This document shows, in pieces, positions 5,620 through 28,629 of a stretch of DNA of 29,000 bases. The DNA is from a virus. Position numbers and translations under genes: made by a program. The notes beneath the pieces are model-generated. The model did not search any database and was not told where the DNA came from. It worked only from the letters and a program-made list of their open reading frames with translations. How positions within the stretch are numbered: the stretch's first letter is position 1; each line of letters begins with the position of its first letter. The stretch is from the IMG/VR virus record IMGVR_UViG_3300010885_043950, positions 1 through 29,000 of that record. The stretch is one strand, 5' to 3'.

Positions 5620-6557
5620 TTATTCCATTACTTCTTATCCGTTATTATCCATTAGATTGCTACAAACTCTAAGGATAAGACTTGCATTTTATCCATTCTC
5701 AACCCCTATTCCTAAGAATCAAGATAAAACCAACGCCCCTAGCCCGAGCTTCCATTACTGGCTGGTCTTTACTCCCACGGTTTGTCTTTCGACTTAACGC
5801 TAGCGATTGCGTTGGTTGTTTTATTCTTAATTCATATTTCTAAGAATCAAGATTTATTTGCCTTTTTACAGAAGGCTAACTGGCTAATTCCAATTTCTTA
5901 GGCTATAGCTAGCAATAGTATTAATTATTTAAGCATAAACTACCAACGCATTGTCGCTATTTTCCGACAGTCATCTTGCTGGCTTGCAATAAACCAGTTT
6001 GCCGAGCTGACATCGCGTATTGCTACGATTGCAAATCACTCTTGCCTTCATCTCTACCTAGGCTAGGTTGCCGTCTTTCCGAGCTGCCAGCTACATTAAA
6101 GTATATTCTTTACCCTCCAAGGCTTCTTACAGCAGCTACGATAAAGGTTTCTTCTTTGTTTTACGCTTGTGTAAGTTCTGCACTAATCTTTAGCCGTGCC
6201 GACTTGTCCCCCGCTGGTGCGATCCTTTCGGGTTCGTTCGGGGGCACTATTGGCAAGATTTTATTGGCTTTCGCCTCACGGCAGGAGACTTGCCAGCCCC
6301 TTAGTCCGAAGCTTGAACTGTTATTTCACTTGTCCACCTTGCGGCAGGGAATATTTGTCAGAAAGCTAACGCATTTCTGCGCTTTTCTATACACATTTTT
6401 TAGATATGTATAGAAAAGCAAAGAAAATATACAAACCCCGCAAGTCATTGTCTAGAATAACTTGCGGAGGTACTAGATACAGTTGCAACGCTTAATTACT
6501 TTTGCAACCGCTCTAGTCCCAGATCAAGAACCGAGAACCCTCAATACTTGTCTGATT
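5620..6557 (-). ncRNA. Candidate large ornate structured RNA 1 (GOLLD/ROOL-like in style)
   Basis: About 940 nt with no credible gene on either strand and visibly more G+C than its flanks. Perfect or near-perfect helices (plus-strand coordinates): 5634-5640/5673-5679, 5724-5736/5809-5824 (13 bp, one 3-nt bulge, extended by 5713-5717/5825-5829), 5739-5743/5799-5803, 5952-5956/5965-5969, 6208-6213/6239-6244, 6251-6257/6289-6295, 6381-6393/6407-6419 (13 bp), 6438-6445/6460-6467, 6472-6477/6512-6517 enclosing 6482-6488/6502-6508. Hairpins at 5784-5793, 6266-6275 and 6370-6381 have TTTC loops, which are GAAA tetraloops on the minus strand, giving the orientation. The loop at 6450-6456 contains TCTAGA and could form a pseudoknot. 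A promoter fits at 6564-6591. The 3' end is not defined. Size, nesting and phage setting recall GOLLD; identity untested. Confidence 0.7.
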
Positions 6558-6563
6558 GACTTA

Positions 6564-6591
6564 ATAATAAACTTTAACTCTAATTAAACAA
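6564..6591 (-). promoter_or_regulatory. Candidate sigma-70 promoter for structured RNA 1
   Basis: On the minus strand TTGTTT (6591-6586) and TATTAT (6569-6564) are 16 bp apart. The predicted start near 6557 coincides with the 5' edge of the structured region. It overlaps the end of the upstream gene. The -35 is weak. Confidence 0.4.
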
Positions 6592-13080: not shown

Positions 13081-13370
13081 AGCTGGGAGGGGTGAGAGGA
13101 GGAAATAGATAGGCGGGGAATTGAGGGGGGTATTGTTGAGAAATAGACGACCCCCACCCCTCCTAGTTTAAATACCTACCCCAACCATTTCTAAAAAAAA
13201 ATCCCCACCAGACCTAATTCACAACTTAACAATCACAACAAACTAATAATAAACCCCCTTTTTAGCCTCACACAACACTTTTCTGCTAATAAATACACAA
13301 TCACCCATTAAACATTTCTAAAACCCTTCCTACCCCCCTCTTTTTTAAAACTGATTTTTCTTTTTTTTTA
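13081..13370. other. Gene-free spacer with abrupt strand skew
   Basis: Right after the small-terminase stop the plus strand is G-rich (13083-13133: GGGAGGGG, CGGGG, GGGGGG). It then turns C/A-rich and almost free of G from about 13145 to 13345. GGAGGGGTG (13085-13093) pairs with CACCCCTCC (13156-13164). No gene is visible. Candidate packaging (pac/cos) site, terminator or replication-linked skew switch. Confidence 0.4.
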
Positions 13371-13523
13371 TTTTCCAAAATCCATTTTAGAGTTTTCTAA
13401 AAATTTTTCCATTTAAACCTTTTTTCAAAATCTAATAATAAGATGTATTGAATATGGTTTTTGTCCGAGTTTGTTAAAAGTACGATAATAACACATATAA
13501 AATAGAGATAGGAAATGGATTTT

Positions 13524-13564
13524 AAAAAAAAGCTGGAATCCTTACTCTCTGTGTCTATTCCAGC
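13524..13564 (-). terminator. Intrinsic terminator on the minus strand
   Basis: GCTGGAAT (13532-13539) and ATTCCAGC (13557-13564) form a perfect 8-bp stem. On the minus strand it is followed by eight T (13531-13524). No minus-strand gene lies immediately upstream, so it implies a short minus-strand RNA starting somewhere to the right. Confidence 0.6.
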
Positions 13565-13566
13565 CC

Positions 13567-13662
13567 GTGAAACATTTTTGACTTATATATCCCCAATATA
13601 TAACTATTATACTGTGGATATACAAGTTGTATACTGTGGATATACAAGTGTAAATGTTTCAC
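13567..13662. repeat. Repeat block before the RepL-like operon, candidate origin or maintenance site
   Basis: TATACTGTGGATATACAAGT occurs at 13608-13627 and 13630-13649, a 22-bp period. On the minus strand each contains ATATCCACA, one mismatch from the DnaA box TTATCCACA; a third relative (ATATCCCCA) lies at 13587-13595. GTGAAACATTT (13567-13577) and AAATGTTTCAC (13652-13662) bracket the block as an 11-bp inverted repeat, and their GTGAAACA/TGTTTCAC cores equal ParB parS half-sites. If transcribed leftwards, the block plus the terminator would make a roughly 140-nt RNA. Confidence 0.55.
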
Positions 13663-13737
13663 ATATATTATCTATTGATTATTAGTTTTTAATTGGTAAG
13701 TTTTTAGGGGTTAATAATTAAGAAATAAGGTTATGAA

Positions 13738-13947
13738 ATGACTTATCTGCCATTTAAAGAAGAAGTTAAACAACAAAAAACTGCGAAACGAATCTTAGAA
13801 GAGCAAAATTATCAGATAATACTTAATGAACTTTCTGAAAAGTTTGAGGCTAAAATGGCTGATGAATGTCGTATTGAGAGATATTTATGGAAAGGTACTA
13901 AAGAATATAAAGAAAGATTTAGCAAAGAAAAGGAGAAAGTAAAATGA
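13738..13947 (+). CDS. Hypothetical charged protein (69 aa)
   Basis: Unrecognised, helical, highly charged protein (KEEVKQQKTAKRILEEQNYQ). AAGG lies about 8 nt before the ATG. Its stop overlaps the start of the next gene (ATGA), so the three genes 13738-14682 form a coupled operon ending at a terminator. Confidence 0.6.
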   Translation: MTYLPFKEEVKQQKTAKRILEEQNYQIILNELSEKFEAKMADECRIERYLWKGTKEYKERFSKEKEKVK

Positions 13948-14234
13948 TTACTACGGCAATTGCTATTACAACAACACTCTTTATAATCCTACACTGGATC
14001 GCAGCAAGTCGTAAGTACAAAATATGGGAATATAGATTTTTTCTTAAAATTTTAAGAGACTGCAAGAAAGATAGAAGTTTAAATGAAAGTTTGAATCGAA
14101 TTTGTTGCATTTTCCCAAATTTTAGTAAAATTTTTTTAACTTATTACTCAAGAAAGCAAAAAAAGTACTGGAAAAATGAGTTTCGCATACTTAATAGAAC
14201 TTTAAAAGAAATAAGAAAATATAATGGCTCGTAA
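13944..14234 (+). CDS. Membrane-anchored small protein (96 aa)
   Basis: One N-terminal TM helix (residues about 2-20, TAIAITTTLFIILHWIA) followed by a basic cytoplasmic or periplasmic tail rich in Lys, Arg and aromatic residues. Overlaps both neighbours by 4 and 11 nt. Placed between an unknown gene and a RepL-like gene; a membrane-tethered replication accessory is one idea, without direct support. Confidence 0.6.
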   Translation: MITTAIAITTTLFIILHWIAASRKYKIWEYRFFLKILRDCKKDRSLNESLNRICCIFPNFSKIFLTYYSRKQKKYWKNEFRILNRTLKEIRKYNGS

Positions 14235-14682
14235 AATTAAAAATCAAACAATCACCAATTTTATTGATGAATTTGGAGAAGTTCACCAAAAAGAGAGTTT
14301 TCAAAGCTATTCGATTGCTGGCGAGGATGATTACATAAAAATCTACATTAAACACATAAACTACTTATCAAATCTGCCTTCTGGCTTGGAAGGGTTGATT
14401 TATGAGCTAATTAAGTGCATGAGTTATGGGAATAAGATTATAATCAACTCCTACATCAAAAGAGATATTGCCGTTAGACTTGGTAAAACCTTCAATACTG
14501 TAAATCAATATATTACCAAATTGTCTGAAAGCAAAATACTTATTCGTGAGGGAAGAGGTGTTTATTATCTCAACCCTCTATTCTATGGAAAAGGCAAATG
14601 GAAGGATATTTTAGAGCTAAGGGAGAAATTAGAGGTAAAAATAAGTTATGAAGATGGAATTTATAAAATAAGCCATAAATAA
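14224..14682 (+). CDS. RepL-like winged-helix replication protein
   Basis: A 152-residue protein. Residues about 80-125 carry a winged helix (KRDIAVRLGKTFNTVNQYIT) followed by LIREGRGVYYLNPLFYGKGK and W-K-D-I-L-E-L-R, the signature ending of the RepL family of plasmid and phage replication proteins. RepL-type proteins initiate replication or regulate it at an origin. The repeat block with DnaA-box-like units at 13567-13662 lies upstream of this operon, which fits. The gene ends just before an intrinsic terminator. A general winged-helix regulator is the alternative. Confidence 0.65.
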   Translation: MARKIKNQTITNFIDEFGEVHQKESFQSYSIAGEDDYIKIYIKHINYLSNLPSGLEGLIYELIKCMSYGNKIIINSYIKRDIAVRLGKTFNTVNQYITKLSESKILIREGRGVYYLNPLFYGKGKWKDILELREKLEVKISYEDGIYKISHK

Positions 14683-14728
14683 TTCAGTTTTTAGTTTCAA
14701 CCAATATCTAGGCTAAGTTAGGGCGTAG

Positions 14729-14758
14729 AAATCCCTTCTATAAAAAAAGGGATTTTTT
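14729..14758 (+). terminator. Intrinsic terminator of the RepL-like operon
   Basis: AAATCCCTT (14729-14737) pairs with AAGGGATTT (14747-14755) and continues into a run of six T. It ends plus-strand transcription 47 nt after the RepL-like stop. The 12-bp TTTCAACCAATA is repeated on both sides (14695-14706, 14772-14783). Confidence 0.75.
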
Positions 14759-14764
14759 ACTAAA

Positions 14765-15238
14765 ATAGGTTTTTCAACCAATAGAGCCGAGTATAAGCCT
14801 TTTAGTATTTTATCTTGCAAGTTCCTTTCGGATTCTAATTTAATTTAGAAGGCAGGCACTTCTAAGAGCTGTTCGGCTCTCCACTTGCAGAAATCATTGT
14901 ATAAAACAATAAGTGCGGTCGAGTTTTTAAGCTCACTTAGTCTTTAAAGCCAGATAAACGACAATAAAGGTTTTTTCACTTTCTACACAGAGCTTTGGGA
15001 ATCAATTCAAAGGTTCAACAGCAATGTCCGTAGCTTTCGCTTGGAACGGGAGGATGGGGTTTTTAGTTTTTCTAAAAATCTAATTTCTTAGATAGTTTTT
15101 TTTATTGTGTATCTACCATTTGCTGTTATTTTTATTTGTTTTTTTCCGCCATTGCTAAATTCTTAGGGAGATAGTTTCCTACCTCCCCAAATAAAAATAA
15201 CAATAAAGGCGATAAACCTACGAGGGATCAGCTCGCAC
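14765..15238 (-). ncRNA. Candidate large ornate structured RNA 2
   Basis: About 475 nt without a gene. Helices (plus coordinates): 14816-14822/14883-14889 closes three hairpins (14823-14832; 14845-14851/14859-14865; 14865-14869/14876-14880). Also 14896-14900/14906-14910, 15060-15066/15072-15078, 15078-15083/15088-15093, and a perfect 15-bp helix 15124-15138/15188-15202 enclosing hairpin 15166-15187. TTTC loops at 14772, 14826, 15035, 15084 and 15175 read as GAAA tetraloops on the minus strand. In hairpin 15166-15187 the plus strand has an A-C mismatch where the minus strand has a G-U pair, which fixes the orientation. A consensus TTGACA at 15271-15266 puts the start near 15236. It converges on the RepL operon terminator. 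Family unassigned; ROOL or a new class. Confidence 0.72.
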
Positions 15239-15265
15239 AATAAAGACTAAAGATAAAAAATCATT

Positions 15266-15271
15266 TGTCAA
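15266..15271 (-). promoter_or_regulatory. -35 element of a probable promoter for structured RNA 2
   Basis: Perfect TTGACA on the minus strand. The -10 is poor (TAGTCT at 16 bp), but the expected start near 15236 coincides with the 5' edge of the structured region. Confidence 0.4.
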
Positions 15272-15295
15272 TAAATATCTTGCTAATTAAATGCT

Positions 15296-15329
15296 TATAA
15301 TTATTTTTTGGCGAATTACTACTCACCAC
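15296..15329 (+). promoter_or_regulatory. Upstream signals of the portal/late operon
   Basis: TATAAT at 15296-15301 is a consensus -10 without a clear -35. TCACCAC at 15323-15329, 10 nt before the portal ATG, is shared with other late-gene leaders in this window. No Shine-Dalgarno is present. Confidence 0.45.
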
Positions 15330-15339
15330 ATAATAAAAC

Positions 15340-17229
15340 ATGGCTTTTGAGAACTTTAAAAGAAAGATAGCTCTAAATTACTTAGAAAAGAAGGGAAGTG
15401 CTTACAGTCCTCTATTGTTTAACTTTCTTACTAATGATTTTGCCTTTGGCACTACATCTGGCAAATATTTAGAATATTACTGCCAAGTCGCCCCTGTTGG
15501 AGATGCTATCAATAAAATAGCTAGTGAAACTGCTTGCGTTGCTCTTTTTCCTTACGCTAAAGCTGAAAAGGAATCAAGAATAGCTTTAACGAATAGCCCT
15601 TTTGTCAAAACTTTCCGTAAACCTAATTTTAAGCAAACTGGGATAGATTTTAAACAAGAGGGTTTTATACACTACTTAGCTACTGGAAATAATTATATTT
15701 ATCTTTCTAGTGTTTTAAGTGCTGACAAGAGAAGTGTTTATCAAAGTCCCTTAGAAGTCTATAATCTACGCCCTGATTACATTACGCCAGTTCAAGACAT
15801 GTCTGGCTACCCAGAATATTACCTTTACAACCCAAATGGAAAACAAAAATGTTTCCATAAGAGTTATATAAATAACATAAATGGTCAATTAATTGAAGCT
15901 TATGTTGAAGATGAGGGCTTTGGAGTGTTATTGCATTGGAAAGAACCTTCCAATAATCAACTATTCTCAATGCTTTATGGTGATTCACCTTTGCAGAATG
16001 TTGAAATCGAAATTAATCAGTATTTAGAAGCGTCAATACACAATGCTAACCTTTTGAGGAACGGTTTGTCTTCTAAGATGTTGTTTACTCCTAAAGATGG
16101 ATCAAATCCGCCAAATCAAGATCAGCTAGATAAAATAAGAGATTATTTAAAAAGTGCTTACTCTGGTTTTAATAATGCTGGCAAGAACCTACTTATTGGA
16201 ATGCCTTTTGATGTTAAGCCTTTGGATATAAACCTCAAAGACATGGATTTTGAGAAGTTGATGCGAAGAATGAGGGTGGCTATTTACAATAAACTAAATA
16301 TTCCGCTTCCTATGGTTGAAGGTGAGTTCACCTCAAATACAAACATGAAAGAGGCTAACCTAAACTTTTATGACAAAGCCGTTCTGCCGCTTCTTGCTAA
16401 ATATTGTGAATATTATTACTGTTTTGTTTATTCCAACTTTTACAAAGATGATGGTGTTTTTGAGATTGGTTTTGAAGAATCTTCAATTCCAGCTTTGCAA
16501 CCTCGTTTATTTGAAACAGTGCAAGTTTTACAAAAAGCTAAAATAGCTACTTCAAACGAACTAAGAGAATTTATTGGATTAGGACGCTGCGGAGTTGGTG
16601 GCGATGCTCTTTATGTTGATGGAAACCAAGTTGCGGTTGCTGGTGATGAAAATATGAGTGATACTATTGGTATTCCAGCAGGAATGGTAAATATGCCTGA
16701 TGACGAGGAAGGAGAGTTGGACGAAGAAGAGGAAGAAACTCTTGAAGGCGATGAAACTGAATTTGAGGAAGAAGACGAATCGGAAGAAAAAGCAGTGGGG
16801 ATTAATCTAAAGCCTACTGATACAATGGCGAGAAATGCTGCTCGTGGTTTAGAGCTTCGTAAAAAATATGGAAGAGGTGGTACTGATGTTGGAGTAGCTC
16901 GTGCAGTTCAATTAAGAAGCCGTGAAAACCTAACACCTAGAATAGTTGCCAGAATGGTTAGTTTTTTTGCAAGACATGGCGTAAATGAAGGCAAAAATAA
17001 GAAACCTAATGGCGAACCTTCTAATCATTATATTGCGTGGTTGTTATGGGGTGGTGATTCTGGACGCTCTTGGGCTAACTCTAAATGGAAGCAAATCCAA
17101 AACTCAAGAATGAAGACTAAAGAAACAGAAAATGATATTCTTGCCAAACTTTTAAACACGACTCTTGACATTAAGGGTAATAGGGTTTATTCTGATGAGG
17201 AAGTGGAGAAGTTGGTTGCTGGTGAATAG
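15340..17229 (+). CDS. HK97-type portal protein with C-terminal extra domain
   Basis: A 629-residue protein. Residues 1-430 are the dodecameric portal that forms the DNA channel at one capsid vertex: the N-terminal FENFKRKIALNYLEKKG, ...VAPVGDAINKIA..., MVEGEFTSNTNMKEANLNFY and the ...LRRFIGL-like region are typical. An acidic linker (about 450-485) follows. Residues about 488-590 form a separate domain (MARNAARGLELRKKYGRGGT.. with HYIAWLLWGGDSGRSWANSK) seen in various phage head proteins. The usual portal length is about 400-500, so this is a fusion. Start ATG15340 has no Shine-Dalgarno. First gene of the head operon. Confidence 0.9.
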   Translation: MAFENFKRKIALNYLEKKGSAYSPLLFNFLTNDFAFGTTSGKYLEYYCQVAPVGDAINKIASETACVALFPYAKAEKESRIALTNSPFVKTFRKPNFKQTGIDFKQEGFIHYLATGNNYIYLSSVLSADKRSVYQSPLEVYNLRPDYITPVQDMSGYPEYYLYNPNGKQKCFHKSYINNINGQLIEAYVEDEGFGVLLHWKEPSNNQLFSMLYGDSPLQNVEIEINQYLEASIHNANLLRNGLSSKMLFTPKDGSNPPNQDQLDKIRDYLKSAYSGFNNAGKNLLIGMPFDVKPLDINLKDMDFEKLMRRMRVAIYNKLNIPLPMVEGEFTSNTNMKEANLNFYDKAVLPLLAKYCEYYYCFVYSNFYKDDGVFEIGFEESSIPALQPRLFETVQVLQKAKIATSNELREFIGLGRCGVGGDALYVDGNQVAVAGDENMSDTIGIPAGMVNMPDDEEGELDEEEEETLEGDETEFEEEDESEEKAVGINLKPTDTMARNAARGLELRKKYGRGGTDVGVARAVQLRSRENLTPRIVARMVSFFARHGVNEGKNKKPNGEPSNHYIAWLLWGGDSGRSWANSKWKQIQNSRMKTKETENDILAKLLNTTLDIKGNRVYSDEEVEKLVAGE

Positions 17230-17264: not shown

Positions 17265-17402
17265 TTCGAGTGGTGGAATGGTAAACACACTCAGAGCGGC
17301 TAGAAATAGCAATGCGAGCGTATCCTGAATTGACAGGAAGTTCTTGTATGTGAGATAGGGGTGTTTAATATCTCCTTTGTGGGTTCGAGTCCCACCTCAG
17401 AA
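17265..17402 (+). ncRNA. Oversized tRNA-Leu-like RNA
   Basis: The D-arm region TGGTGGAATGGTAAACACAC closely follows bacterial tRNA-Leu, and the T-arm GTGGG-TTCGAGT-CCCAC (17379-17395) is perfect. The acceptor TTCGAG (17265-17270) pairs with CTCaGAA (17396-17402) with one bulge. But the RNA is about 138 nt, against about 85 for tRNA-Leu. No credible anticodon loop is seen. The middle instead holds GCTA-GAAA-TAGC (17299-17310), TCCTG/CAGGA (17323-17338) and GAGATA/TATCTC (17352-17374). TAAACAC (17282-17288) could also pair with GTGTTTA (17361-17367). No CCA is encoded. Read as a tRNA-like non-coding RNA; a tRNA with an insertion is the alternative. Confidence 0.65.
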
Positions 17403-18747: not shown

Positions 18748-18972
18748 CTAAGTAAAATCTCTTAATTTGTAATTGCTATTGAGAAAAGCACAGAGTTCTT
18801 CAAAAGCTTTGTCTCGGGCTTCTTGTGATTCATAAATAAAGCCAAAACCTTCTGTACCAATTGTTTTAAAAGTTACAACAATCGACAGACGATTTTTATC
18901 CTTCCCAATTCCAAGTATTGTATCTAAGGCAATCAAACAATCATTAATAGCAGTTGAACTTCTTATAAACAT
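18748..18972 (-). CDS. Hypothetical protein of the inverted cassette (74 aa)
   Basis: Unrecognised protein (MFIRSSTAINDCLIALDTIL..), beta strands then a helix with EARDKAFEELCAFL. No TM or cysteine motif of note. Last of three minus-strand genes embedded in the plus-strand head operon. Confidence 0.55.
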   Translation of the reverse strand: MFIRSSTAINDCLIALDTILGIGKDKNRLSIVVTFKTIGTEGFGFIYESQEARDKAFEELCAFLNSNYKLRDFT

Positions 18973-18992
18973 ATTATTTCTTTAGTAATTTG

Positions 18993-19235
18993 TTATTTAA
19001 ATGATATTTGTCTGTAAGTACTGGTATTCAAAAAAAATCCCTCACCTTTTGAATTGCTTGCAATAAAATGACTGCCACATAATTTACAGGAAGGAGCCAT
19101 TTCTCCATCTTTTAAAATGGATTGATGCCAGTCAAAATCTAACGCACTCATTATATCACCTTCTTTAAGATCTACTAAAGCTGTAGCGATTAAATGATCT
19201 TCAGTACAAAATATTTTAATTCCTTTTTTTATCAT
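18993..19235 (-). CDS. Hypothetical protein with one CxxC pair (80 aa)
   Basis: Unrecognised. Residues about 30-57 read MSALDFDWHQSILKDGEMAP then CKLCGSHF, resembling small phage proteins with a single CxxCG knuckle. Middle gene of the minus-strand cassette, 2 nt after its upstream neighbour. Confidence 0.55.
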   Translation of the reverse strand: MIKKGIKIFCTEDHLIATALVDLKEGDIMSALDFDWHQSILKDGEMAPSCKLCGSHFIASNSKGEGFFLNTSTYRQISFK

Positions 19236-19236
19236 A

Positions 19237-19509
19237 TTATTTTTTCAGCAATTCATTAAGTTGTTTTTCTAAATTGTCCCTGTCTTCTCGTAGATCCTTG
19301 ATTTCTTCTAAAAGTTCCGCAACAACATAAAAAACTTTCCTTAAATCATTTTTTTCATAAAGTTTTATCCAATATGTTTTACCATAGCCAAGATAATCTC
19401 CAAAAAAAGATTCCCTCGTAGGTTCTTTCATTTTTCCTTGGTCAACTAGATCAGAATAAAATTCTCTTATTCTAATTAAATATTGATATGTTTTTGAAGT
19501 TCCGCGCAT
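19237..19509 (-). CDS. Hypothetical coiled-coil protein of the inverted cassette (90 aa)
   Basis: Unrecognised, basic N-terminal region (MRGTSKTYQYLIRIREFYSD) and C-terminal coiled coil (residues about 62-90, LEEIKDLREDRDNLEKQL). The layout suits a dimeric DNA-binding protein but no HTH is clear. The 19-bp palindrome lies directly upstream of its ATG, so this cassette seems to have its own promoter facing away from the protease gene. Confidence 0.55.
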   Translation of the reverse strand: MRGTSKTYQYLIRIREFYSDLVDQGKMKEPTRESFFGDYLGYGKTYWIKLYEKNDLRKVFYVVAELLEEIKDLREDRDNLEKQLNELLKK

Positions 19510-23141: not shown

Positions 23142-23500
23142 TGGCTACTAAAGACTTTCAACCAGTTTTAAACTTTGATTTACAAGCTGTAATTGCTAAT
23201 GGTGCAACAACATCTAATGCAGTGGATTTATTAGGTACTAGTCTTTTAGCCTTTGTTACCGATGCTGCATTAAATGGGACTGCTTTTACTTTTACAGTTT
23301 CTGACAATTTAGCTGGAACTTATGTGCCGCTAAAGAGAATGTCTGATGGGACAACTTTAACTGCTGTTGTTGCTGTATCTGGGCAATATGCAACAAACCC
23401 TGCTGACTTTGCTTCAGTTAGGTTTTTAAAGATTGTTTCTGGAACTGCTCAAAGTGGAGCGGCAACTACAATTAAATTAGTAAATAGAAGATTAGCGTAA
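23141..23500 (+). CDS. Beta-rich structural protein (119 aa)
   Basis: Similar in composition to its two upstream neighbours (ATTSNAVDLLGTSLLAFVTD.., YVPLKRMSDG). Probably another head decoration or head-completion protein. Coupled to the connector gene by a one-base stop/start overlap. Confidence 0.65.
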   Translation: MATKDFQPVLNFDLQAVIANGATTSNAVDLLGTSLLAFVTDAALNGTAFTFTVSDNLAGTYVPLKRMSDGTTLTAVVAVSGQYATNPADFASVRFLKIVSGTAQSGAATTIKLVNRRLA

Positions 23501-24168
23501 TGGCAAACAACACTAACTGGCTACCTTTCCAGCAACCACTTAACTATATTTTGGTAACTGGAGCTGGATCAACATTGCCAGTTAGTTTGTCTGATGTTAA
23601 AACTTGGTTGAAAGTACCTAGCACTATTACTGCTGATGATAATCTAATCACTGCCGTTATTAAATCTGGTGCCGCAACATTTGAAAAAATAACAGGCAGA
23701 GATTTAATCAACAAGACCTATAAAACTTACCTAGATTCTTTTCCTTGCGTTGATGGGCTTAATTATTATACAGGTGTAAGTTCCTTAGCTCCGAAATATA
23801 ATGACAACGGAATTATTTTAAAAAAATCTAAGCTACAATCAATTACCTCAATTCAATATTATCTTAACGGAGTTTTGACAACTTGGAGTTCCACTAATTA
23901 TTATATTACAGACTTACCTGATTATTCTGCAATTTACTTAGTAGCTGACAAAGAATTTCCATCTGATATTGACATTAGAAAACAAGCTGTTGTAATTAAC
24001 TTTGTTGCTGGCTATGGCTCTTCTGATGCAAATGTGCCAGAAGATGCAAAACAAGCTCTTTTACAATTTATTACTTACCTTTATGAAAATAGAGGGGATT
24101 GTGCAAGTTCAAAAGATATGCAAGCAGCAATGGACTTATTCAGCCAATTTAAAATTATTGATTTCTAA
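23500..24168 (+). CDS. Head-tail connector (HK97 gp6-like)
   Basis: A 222-residue protein. LPVSLSDVKTWLKVPSTITA, DDNLITAVIKSGAATFEKIT and GRDLINKTYKTYLDSFP are the helical signature of gp6-type adaptor proteins (Phage_QLRG / phiE125 gp8 types), which form a ring beneath the portal. The central part is strand-rich, with YLNGVLTTWSSTNYYITD and an FVAGYGSSDANVPEDAKQAL segment typical of the larger members. Translationally coupled to its neighbours. Confidence 0.82.
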   Translation: MANNTNWLPFQQPLNYILVTGAGSTLPVSLSDVKTWLKVPSTITADDNLITAVIKSGAATFEKITGRDLINKTYKTYLDSFPCVDGLNYYTGVSSLAPKYNDNGIILKKSKLQSITSIQYYLNGVLTTWSSTNYYITDLPDYSAIYLVADKEFPSDIDIRKQAVVINFVAGYGSSDANVPEDAKQALLQFITYLYENRGDCASSKDMQAAMDLFSQFKIIDF

Positions 24169-24563
24169 TGGGAAGTTGCGTAAGAATTAAAATAAGACCA
24201 GCTAAAGCTTGTATAGGTGATATGAAAGCCTATATTTCTATTTATAAAAAAACAAAACAAGCTACAAGCACCACTGCCGTTGATCCAAATCTAAATCTTA
24301 CTTTAGTTGTTGCAACTTGGGCTTTACAAAAAAGTGTAAGTGGTGAAGAGATATTTGATGGCGTAAATATGATTGGCAAAATTACTGACCATTTCTTTAT
24401 TCGTTATGGTGCAATCACTGCCTCAAAAATCCATCTTTTAGAGTATTCTGGCAATAGATATGAAATTGTTGAAGTAATCCCAGATTACGAAGGAAGAAGT
24501 GAACTAACGCTTCTTAAATGCTCAATTAGAGGTAGTTCAGCTTTAACAAATACCAAGATATGA
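24168..24563 (+). CDS. Head closure protein (SPP1 gp16-like head-tail joining)
   Basis: A 131-residue beta-barrel-type protein: IGDMKAYISIYKKTKQ, ATWALQKSVSGEEIFDG, HFFIRYGAITASKIHLL and YEIVEVIPDYEGR match the Phage_H_T_join (PF05521) pattern. It seals the connector and provides the docking site for the tail. Overlaps the next gene by 4 nt. Confidence 0.82.
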   Translation: MGSCVRIKIRPAKACIGDMKAYISIYKKTKQATSTTAVDPNLNLTLVVATWALQKSVSGEEIFDGVNMIGKITDHFFIRYGAITASKIHLLEYSGNRYEIVEVIPDYEGRSELTLLKCSIRGSSALTNTKI

Positions 24564-26956: not shown

Positions 26957-27154
26957 ATGCCTAATAAACAAGAGCAAAGATTTTGCAGATGTTGTGATAA
27001 AATTATGCCAGCAAATAAAAAAGTGCCTAATCATATTCTGTACTTTATCTTAGGTATTCTTACTTATGGATTTTGGATATTTGTTTGGTTGATTCTTATT
27101 CTTTGCAACTCAAGCGAACCTTTTTATTGCGAAAAATGTGGTAGTTGTATTTAA
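26957..27154 (+). CDS. Zinc-knuckle membrane protein (65 aa)
   Basis: CRCC near residue 10 and CEKCGSC at the C-terminus flank one hydrophobic segment (residues about 26-50, HILYFILGILTYGFWIFVWL). The PNH before the TM and the split cysteine pairs recall small bacterial LITAF-like or zinc-ribbon membrane proteins. Both cysteine pairs could meet if the segment is a re-entrant hairpin. In a phage this could remodel the envelope or block superinfection. It ends 4 nt past the stop of the convergent terminase gene. Confidence 0.65.
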   Translation: MPNKQEQRFCRCCDKIMPANKKVPNHILYFILGILTYGFWIFVWLILILCNSSEPFYCEKCGSCI

Positions 27155-28629
27155 AACACCGAAAACATTTTATCCCAATCAATAGAGTTATTCTTAAAAT
27201 ATGTAAGGAATTGAGCCAAACAATCTGGGTCTTCATCATGAGAGCCATTTGGAAATTGCATTAAAGAATCTTCAAAATCAAATAACCAAGTAGCTTGTTT
27301 TGGAATATAAATATTACCATTAGCCATTGCACCAGTTGAATTATAAAACCTAATCTCCTTCTTAATTCCACCATGAGAAATTGCAACTATACCAAAATTA
27401 CACTCTTTTGGTAATTCTTGAATTAAAGACGAACCAGTATTTGCATCTTCAATTAAAATAGAGTTTGCAGTTGGAAATTTAGAGGCAAACATTAAAAGAT
27501 TTTTCTTTGTGTCTTGATAAATTGCCCTTTGATTATATCGATCAATAAGATAAATAGAAGTGCCTTTTACGCCAAATTTCAGAAACCCAGAAGGGTCATT
27601 TATTTCTTTTACTTTTTGAGCAGTATCTGCACTAACATACACAGAATCAAATTGCATATAAGGCAAGTTCTCAAGGTCGAATCTTTGAAACCATTTCATG
27701 TCAACCATGTTACCACCTTCTGCAACTGGCTTTTGCATGTATTGCGTATAGAATACTTGCTTACCATTTGCAATTCCTGTTTCAGTATCTACGGTGCGGT
27801 TTTTTAGTTCATCAACTTTCTCTCTTGTAAATCTTGGCAATTCTGGGGCAAGCAAGTCTCCTTCGTTAATTTCTTTCTTAAAATCACCAAAATAAAAATA
27901 CTGTTTTTTCTCAAACTCTACTGGCAAACACAAGTGAGTATATTCTTTGCCTCTAGTTCTTAGAAGAAAGCCAGTTAAATCACTTACGCCAAGTCTTTGC
28001 TCTATTATTACAAAGCTATTTCTTACAACACTTCCACGGCTTTCAAATGTATCTGCAAACTTATTCAAAAGCCTAATTTTAGTGGCTTCTGATTGCATCA
28101 TTGTGGAAGACATGTAGTCATCAAATAAAAGATAATTTGCTCTTTCGCCTGTGATATTTCCTTCTGTTGCAAAGCCTTGCATTTCACCACCCATTGTAGT
28201 TCTAAAATGTGTTTCAGTATTTTTTCTATCATCAGCTTTAAATTCTGGGAAAAGCTCTTGGAATCTTTTTGTTTCAGTAATTCTTTTAGTCCAACCAATA
28301 TTTCTATTTACAAGGTTTTCTTTGTTTGAAATAGCGAAGATTTTTTCGTAAGGAGTTCTGCCAAGAATATAAGAAGGAAGACCAGAAGACCATATTGTGG
28401 ACTTCATTAGTCCAGGTGGAATATTTATGATAAGCCTTTCAATTTCACCATCAGCAACGGCTTGAGCATATTCGCACATTAAATCAATGCTCCAAGTCTC
28501 AATTAATGGAGAACTAGGATGAATAAACGGATAAGCAAATTTCTTAAAGTAATCTCTAAAATTGCTTTTGATTGTCTCGTTTGCACTTTCTTGTGCTAAT
28601 TTGGCTAGGAAGTTCGGGTCTAAGTTCAT
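27151..28629 (-). CDS. terL: Terminase large subunit
   Basis: A 492-residue ATP-driven DNA packaging motor and nuclease. The N-terminal ATPase has the deviant Walker A of this family, NIPPGLMKST (69-78), and Walker B LLFDD (167-171). The C-terminal RNase-H-like nuclease has VSADTA (Asp335), LIEDANTGSSLIQEL (Asp395) and HDEDPDCLAQFL (Asp469), the three-acid pattern expected. Full length. Unusually it is on the minus strand, downstream of the tail genes and 14 kb from the small subunit. Its leader has the palindrome and TCACCAC motif, so it shares late control with the head genes. Confidence 0.95.
   Translation of the reverse strand: MNLDPNFLAKLAQESANETIKSNFRDYFKKFAYPFIHPSSPLIETWSIDLMCEYAQAVADGEIERLIINIPPGLMKSTIWSSGLPSYILGRTPYEKIFAISNKENLVNRNIGWTKRITETKRFQELFPEFKADDRKNTETHFRTTMGGEMQGFATEGNITGERANYLLFDDYMSSTMMQSEATKIRLLNKFADTFESRGSVVRNSFVIIEQRLGVSDLTGFLLRTRGKEYTHLCLPVEFEKKQYFYFGDFKKEINEGDLLAPELPRFTREKVDELKNRTVDTETGIANGKQVFYTQYMQKPVAEGGNMVDMKWFQRFDLENLPYMQFDSVYVSADTAQKVKEINDPSGFLKFGVKGTSIYLIDRYNQRAIYQDTKKNLLMFASKFPTANSILIEDANTGSSLIQELPKECNFGIVAISHGGIKKEIRFYNSTGAMANGNIYIPKQATWLFDFEDSLMQFPNGSHDEDPDCLAQFLTYFKNNSIDWDKMFSVF

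Follow-up and report, generated by a model that had tools for sequence, protein, structure and literature searches.

What occupies the 657 bases that separate the RepL-like gene from the portal gene in this virus? The sequence analyzed, hereafter the window, is a 29,000-nt stretch of IMG/VR virus record IMGVR_UViG_3300010885_043950 with 33% G+C, in which the RepL-like gene (152 aa; PF05732, E 7e-9) is located at 14224-14682 and the portal gene at 15340-17229. A first-pass annotation had assigned positions 14765-15238 to a large structured RNA of the minus strand that points in the opposite direction to the head operon. The direction holds and the features it described are present, but the interval is a little short: the alignment of filled and empty sites and the identities of the flanks place the complete optional element at 14683-15276 (~590 bp, minus strand), and conservation and structure suggest a noncoding RNA of ~545 nt at 14695-15237. 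No ORF longer than 35 aa was found inside the element, and a protein-coding reading was ruled out for this reason. The nearest tRNA gene is tRNA-His at 17323, and no tRNA cluster adjoins. The plus-strand head operon is broken up by three small minus-strand genes (18748-19509), one of which (19237-19509) holds the same position in most relatives.

Relatives of the portal protein were taken from IMG/VR, and eight contigs contain the junction of the RepL-like and portal genes. The element is carried by three of the eight; L001 is exactly the window sequence, and the copies in L003 and L004, which are other IMG/VR contigs, are diverged and lie at the identical genomic place. The other five (L002, L005, L006, L007 and L008) have an empty site, with the two genes ~65 bases apart. 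Because L002 lacks the element and yet shows 97% identity to the window in both flanking genes, gain or loss of the element is recent. L069 and L070, which are more distantly related, have a terminase gene between RepL and portal, and the junction is therefore a plastic spot; the terminase gene of L069 (3920-5332) sits exactly where the window has the RNA element. In the window, the large terminase gene (27151-28629, minus strand) lies far away from both the portal gene and the small terminase gene. Two element carriers, L003 (3385-4665) and L004, have a seryl-tRNA synthetase gene (PF00587, PF02403) immediately upstream of the RepL-like gene, and the window has none there.

This distribution, with a unit that some relatives have and others cleanly lack at the junction of the same two genes, is the one that characterizes a phage moron. 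Morons are usually described as coding for protein and as having a promoter and a terminator of their own, whereas the element appears to be RNA only and its promoter is weak; the likeness lies in the optional unit between genes that are adjacent in close relatives. Clean presence and absence would also suit a mobile element with catalytic activity, or a non-autonomous remnant of one, such as an intron or an IS-derived or HEARO-like sequence. In accordance with that, a 7-bp direct repeat, ATAAATA, brackets the element at 14675-14681 and 15271-15277, and the empty sites contain a single copy of it or a variant. The repeat may be a target duplication or a coincidence in A+T-rich DNA. We consider a mobile origin highly improbable, because the element was found at this one site only in the IMG/VR scans, its ends lack terminal inverted repeats, it matches no Rfam intron or HEARO family, splicing would be purposeless outside any gene, and the repeat is short and made of A and T only.

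Inspection of the minus strand of 14765-15238 revealed five GAAA tetraloops (at 15178, 15087, 15038, 14829 and 14775), counting only those closed by at least 3 bp, compared with a mean of 0.39 in shuffled sequences (P about 0.0005) and none on the plus strand. This agrees with the number annotated earlier, and all five loops stay GNRA in the other copies. The other elements of the earlier fold were also recovered, namely a perfect 15-bp helix (15202-15188/15138-15124) around a 9-bp hairpin (15187-15166) that is continuous on the minus strand only, where it has G-U in place of the plus-strand A-C, and, at 14889-14816, a closed domain of three hairpins.

Read from its predicted 5′ end, the RNA would begin with a 6-bp hairpin (15219-15237), 100% paired and with one compensatory pair, whose invariant 7-nt loop CUGAUCC contains the palindrome GAUC. 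Next comes segment X (15188-15207), the 5′ arm of a long helix with segment Y (15119-15138); the 15-bp helix is part of this inverted repeat, a 20-nt arm pair with 90% complementarity. Between the arms lies the 9-bp hairpin, with three compensatory pairs and a GNRA loop that is GAAA in the window and L003 and GCAA in L004. A 6-bp helix with one compensatory pair (15111-15106/14989-14984) spans 14984-15111, a region that also holds the invariant hairpin CCGU..AGC-GAAA-GCU-ACGG (15028-15049) and segment Z (15017-15024), described below. Toward the 3′ end are a 7-bp hairpin with one compensatory pair (14894-14912), the three-hairpin domain, and the invariant hairpin GGUU-GAAA-AACC (14768-14779). 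The three-hairpin domain is closed by a 7-bp helix, includes the hairpin UCC-GAAA-GGA and is nearly invariant, and hence falls outside covariation testing.

Covariation, which had been suggested as a check on the structure, was examined in an alignment of the window, L003 and L004, three distinct sequences of which two are close, so that covariation here consists of few events. Across the three versions, the 15-helix structure described here is 99.6% paired and 11 pairs have changed on both sides, whereas sliding the partners by 1-3 columns gave 38-49% pairing and 0-2 compensatory pairs. The helices were selected for pairing in these same sequences, which biases the 99.6%, and the compensatory counts weigh more. 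A strand-neutral scan detected three helices with at least two Watson-Crick compensations each, where column-shuffled alignments gave 0.21 such helices on average; one of the three had four compensations, and none of 200 shuffles exceeded two. The X-Y helix was among the three, in a register that arose from the placement of gaps. In its own register, as read manually, it has lengths of 20, 16 and 17 bp across the versions and shows compensatory changes; the window has a single A-C mismatch and L004 a single bulge.

The strand was judged from folding energy and from mismatches. Relative to shuffled sequences, 14765-15238 folds with z = -3.7 on the minus strand and -2.2 on the plus strand; among the three copies, the minus-strand values range from -3.2 to -4.5 and those of the plus strand from -2.8 to -3.6. 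The scanned helices contain 33 G-U and 15 A-C cells, and in the 9-bp hairpin the three aligned copies show four G-U cells and zero A-C cells. This excess of G-U, together with the GNRA loop kept through the change of GAAA to GCAA, favors a minus-strand RNA, although, since the plus strand also folds better than shuffled sequences, the strand is deduced and not proved. A plus-strand RNA would serve the portal operon as a structured 5′ leader, in which alternative helices control transcription or translation of the head genes. The location directly upstream of the portal gene and the plus-strand folding fit such a leader, as does the Y-Z pairing described below, which is equally good on both strands. 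Nevertheless, we regard it as quite unlikely, because the five GAAA tetraloops and the G-U bias all belong to the minus strand, a plus-strand version of the 9-bp hairpin contains C-A mismatches, and the portal gene is expressed in the absence of the element in L002 and four further relatives.

The preference for G-U over A-C, and the exchange of GAAA for GCAA that is typical of RNA, also bear on action at the DNA level, where hairpins in single-stranded DNA would serve as a strand-specific single-stranded origin or as a replication or packaging signal. The neighboring RepL-like gene suits this idea, and so does GCGAAAGC, which makes an unusually stable DNA mini-hairpin. However, five relatives with the same RepL gene do without the element, and we think this explanation very unlikely. 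A large structured RNA from the minus strand, as first annotated, is thus well supported by the compensatory changes, the retained GNRA loops, the G-U bias and the constrained 3′ domain.

The RNA consists of two domains that change at different rates. Comparison of the window with L003 gives a difference of 4.2% in the 3′ domain (14698-15053, minus strand) and of 28% in the 5′ domain (15054-15241, minus strand), against 22% at the four-fold degenerate sites of the portal gene. The rate of the 3′ domain, which is the conserved body, is therefore about one fifth of that of silent sites (P = 2e-9), indicating strong constraint at the level of its sequence. In the 5′ domain, sequence constraint relative to silent sites is absent in this comparison (P = 0.26), while its helices are preserved. 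Between L003 and L004, the 5′ domain differs by 10.5%, against 6 of 207 silent sites in two neighboring genes (Fisher P = 0.002). This excess reflects either rapid evolution or import by recombination, two causes that three sequences cannot separate.

Within the 5′ domain, segment Y has a second potential partner. Positions 15127-15120 of Y pair perfectly over 8 bp with segment Z (15024-15017) in all three versions, with four compensatory pairs, and the same part of Y forms the outer part of the X-Y helix, so that X-Y and Y-Z are mutually exclusive. Y-Z is within the lowest-energy fold of the window version, with a mean pair probability of 0.85, and in L003 and L004 the Y-Z state lies 8.5 and 4.5 kcal/mol above the minimum, respectively. 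Judging from these energies, the RNA could adopt either of two folds of similar stability. A two-state 5′ domain is probable, in which Y would switch between X and Z. Y-Z could form a pseudoknot with the 15111-15106/14989-14984 helix if both exist, or it could be an intermolecular pairing.

Transcription signals were sought at both edges. A perfect TTGACA, a candidate -35 box, is located at 15266-15271 on the minus strand, as the first-pass annotation had noted, and is kept in the three copies. The start that it predicted, near 15237, is weak: the candidate -10, TAGTCT (15249-15244, minus strand), is poor although the spacer is 16 nt, and no promoter-like site in the element passed a promoter scan with a 9-of-12 cut-off. 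At the other edge, a hairpin at 14729-14761, inverted repeat I14, reads AAATCCCTT/AAGGGATTT followed by a T-run on the plus strand and is invariant in the three copies. It is a candidate intrinsic terminator that may end transcription of the RepL-like gene; the terminator scan, whose loop limit is 8, did not call it. On the minus strand, the same bases are the last hairpin of the RNA, with no U tail. No minus-strand terminator was found by the scan before the RepL-like gene; among terminator-like hairpins, only the plus-strand one just described carries a T tail.

These signals permit a cis-acting interpretation, in which the element is a boundary that uncouples RepL from the portal operon in the phages that have it: the plus-strand terminator would end the RepL-like mRNA, and the minus-strand RNA would regulate by antisense pairing or interference. 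The invariant terminator-like hairpin lies just past the RepL-like gene, the element RNA is convergent to RepL, and the scan found nothing to halt it before that gene, all of which would be in keeping with a boundary. A boundary or an antisense RNA, however, has no need of ~545 nt of GNRA-rich, covarying structure, and relatives do without the element; we therefore hold this interpretation unlikely.

Is the RNA a member of a known family? GOLLD and ROOL had been named at first as the families to check, and membership of neither is supported by the searches. Scanning the window with Rfam 15 (cmscan) at gathering score yielded no family, including group II intron, HEARO, RNase P and tmRNA, and scanning 14650-15340 up to E = 5 yielded chance-level matches only. 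Searches of G000, G001, G003 and G004 with the GOLLD model (RF02032; membership cut-off 150 bits) gave no match at E <= 10. The ROOL model (RF03087; cut-off 99.1 bits) also gave none at E <= 10, in a search run without a positive control. No match to the group I intron (RF00028) or the P7 core was obtained at E <= 10, and the positive controls of this search were detected. The element thus most likely represents, as far as its sequence can tell, a new family of large structured phage RNA.

Structures of GOLLD and ROOL have been solved, and we know of no function for either. The element RNA resembles GOLLD as a large, phage-encoded, structured RNA, and a lake is among the origins of GOLLD. It falls short of the 800 nt that many GOLLD RNAs have and is not beside a tRNA cluster. 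GOLLD has a conserved 3′ region and a less conserved 5′ region (PMC12286853), the arrangement seen here with 4.2% and 28% between the window and L003, although this is a resemblance of layout only. With ROOL the element shares phage encoding, a similar length (574 positions in the model), richness in helices and a pseudoknot, which in the element is a possible one, but cmscan finds no common sequence motif. ROOL is non-essential where tested (PMC12286853).

Further copies were searched for in several collections. Scans of IMG/VR with six exact patterns from conserved segments returned the same three contigs and chance matches, with no further homologue. The matches in L023 and L027-L030 are chance matches in coding DNA, rejected by reading them or by nhmmer, and the remaining loci were rejected because the profile match was not significant (nhmmer). 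One 20-mer from the element had no match in bacterial genomes, a search of bacterial genomes for relatives of the major capsid protein, intended as a lead to the host, found none, and blastn of 14000-16000 against a phage collection gave no match.

On balance, we judge it probable that the element is a self-contained optional gene for a large structured noncoding RNA of the minus strand, gained and lost like a moron and most likely acting in trans. The RNA, ~545 nt long, would start near 15237 and end near 14695. Near-identical relatives dispense with the element, which speaks against a central part in replication, packaging or expression of the head genes; this dispensability and the GOLLD-like layout suggest a function in trans. 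A constrained body joined to a fast-changing 5′ domain that keeps its structure points to action on a varying partner: the GNRA-rich 3′ domain would form the body, and the 5′ domain would be the part meeting the changing partner. By analogy with what has been suggested for GOLLD and ROOL, the RNA would most likely act during infection as a folded scaffold or decoy. A more specific proposal, which we offer only tentatively, is a new class of large phage RNA whose body is invariant and whose two-state 5′ domain evolves fast and recognizes a changing factor of the host or of a rival. Such an RNA may self-associate through the GAUC loop, and it would belong to a set of at least three unrelated large RNAs that are shuffled among these lake phages. 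Phages that are ~97% identical in the flanks, with and without the RNA, provide a natural comparison for testing its function, and the contrast of conserved body and fast-changing domain hints at where a partner may be sought.

The phage has another large structured noncoding region at 5640-6570 (minus strand; z -5.75 on the minus and -6.5 on the plus strand). Staphylococcus phage K offers a precedent for two long noncoding RNAs in one phage; its two long structured RNAs, likened by the authors to GOLLD and ROOL, adjoin tRNA genes and were shown to be transcribed (PMC9241854). The suggestion that the two RNAs of the window are partners was unsupported: they have no significant sequence in common, their predicted duplex (-201.6) is no better than that of shuffled sequences (-208 +/- 8), and they are not co-inherited, since G006 has the other RNA with an empty element site and G003 has the element RNA with part of the other. 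The homologue of 5640-6570 in G006 (35457-36403) is diverged (E 3e-53) and that in G003 (1354-1620) is partial; in both, islands of 87-96% identity alternate with unalignable stretches, and G003 has parts only.

At least two further noncoding regions that are large and structured occur in the related contigs, and such RNAs may be common cargo here. A large noncoding region of G006 (23267-24256; L077 3267-4256) has 42% G+C and z about -4.8 and -3.2, and its minus strand has an exact 30-base module, AGCCAGTTAGCCTTCTGTAAAAAGGCAAAT, in common with the 5640-6570 RNA, as if modules had been exchanged between RNAs. Noncoding regions at G009:4360-5220 (L081) and G002:26125-26553 (L072 12125-12553) show folding on one strand with z about -7.7 and -7.0, respectively (15 shuffles). 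Finally, a noncoding stretch of ~620 bases (window 13100-13740) follows the small terminase gene and is 80-95% conserved in all close relatives; it has a G-run-rich and a C-rich half, a large inverted repeat around TGTGAAACATTT and repeated TATACTGTGGATATACAAGT.
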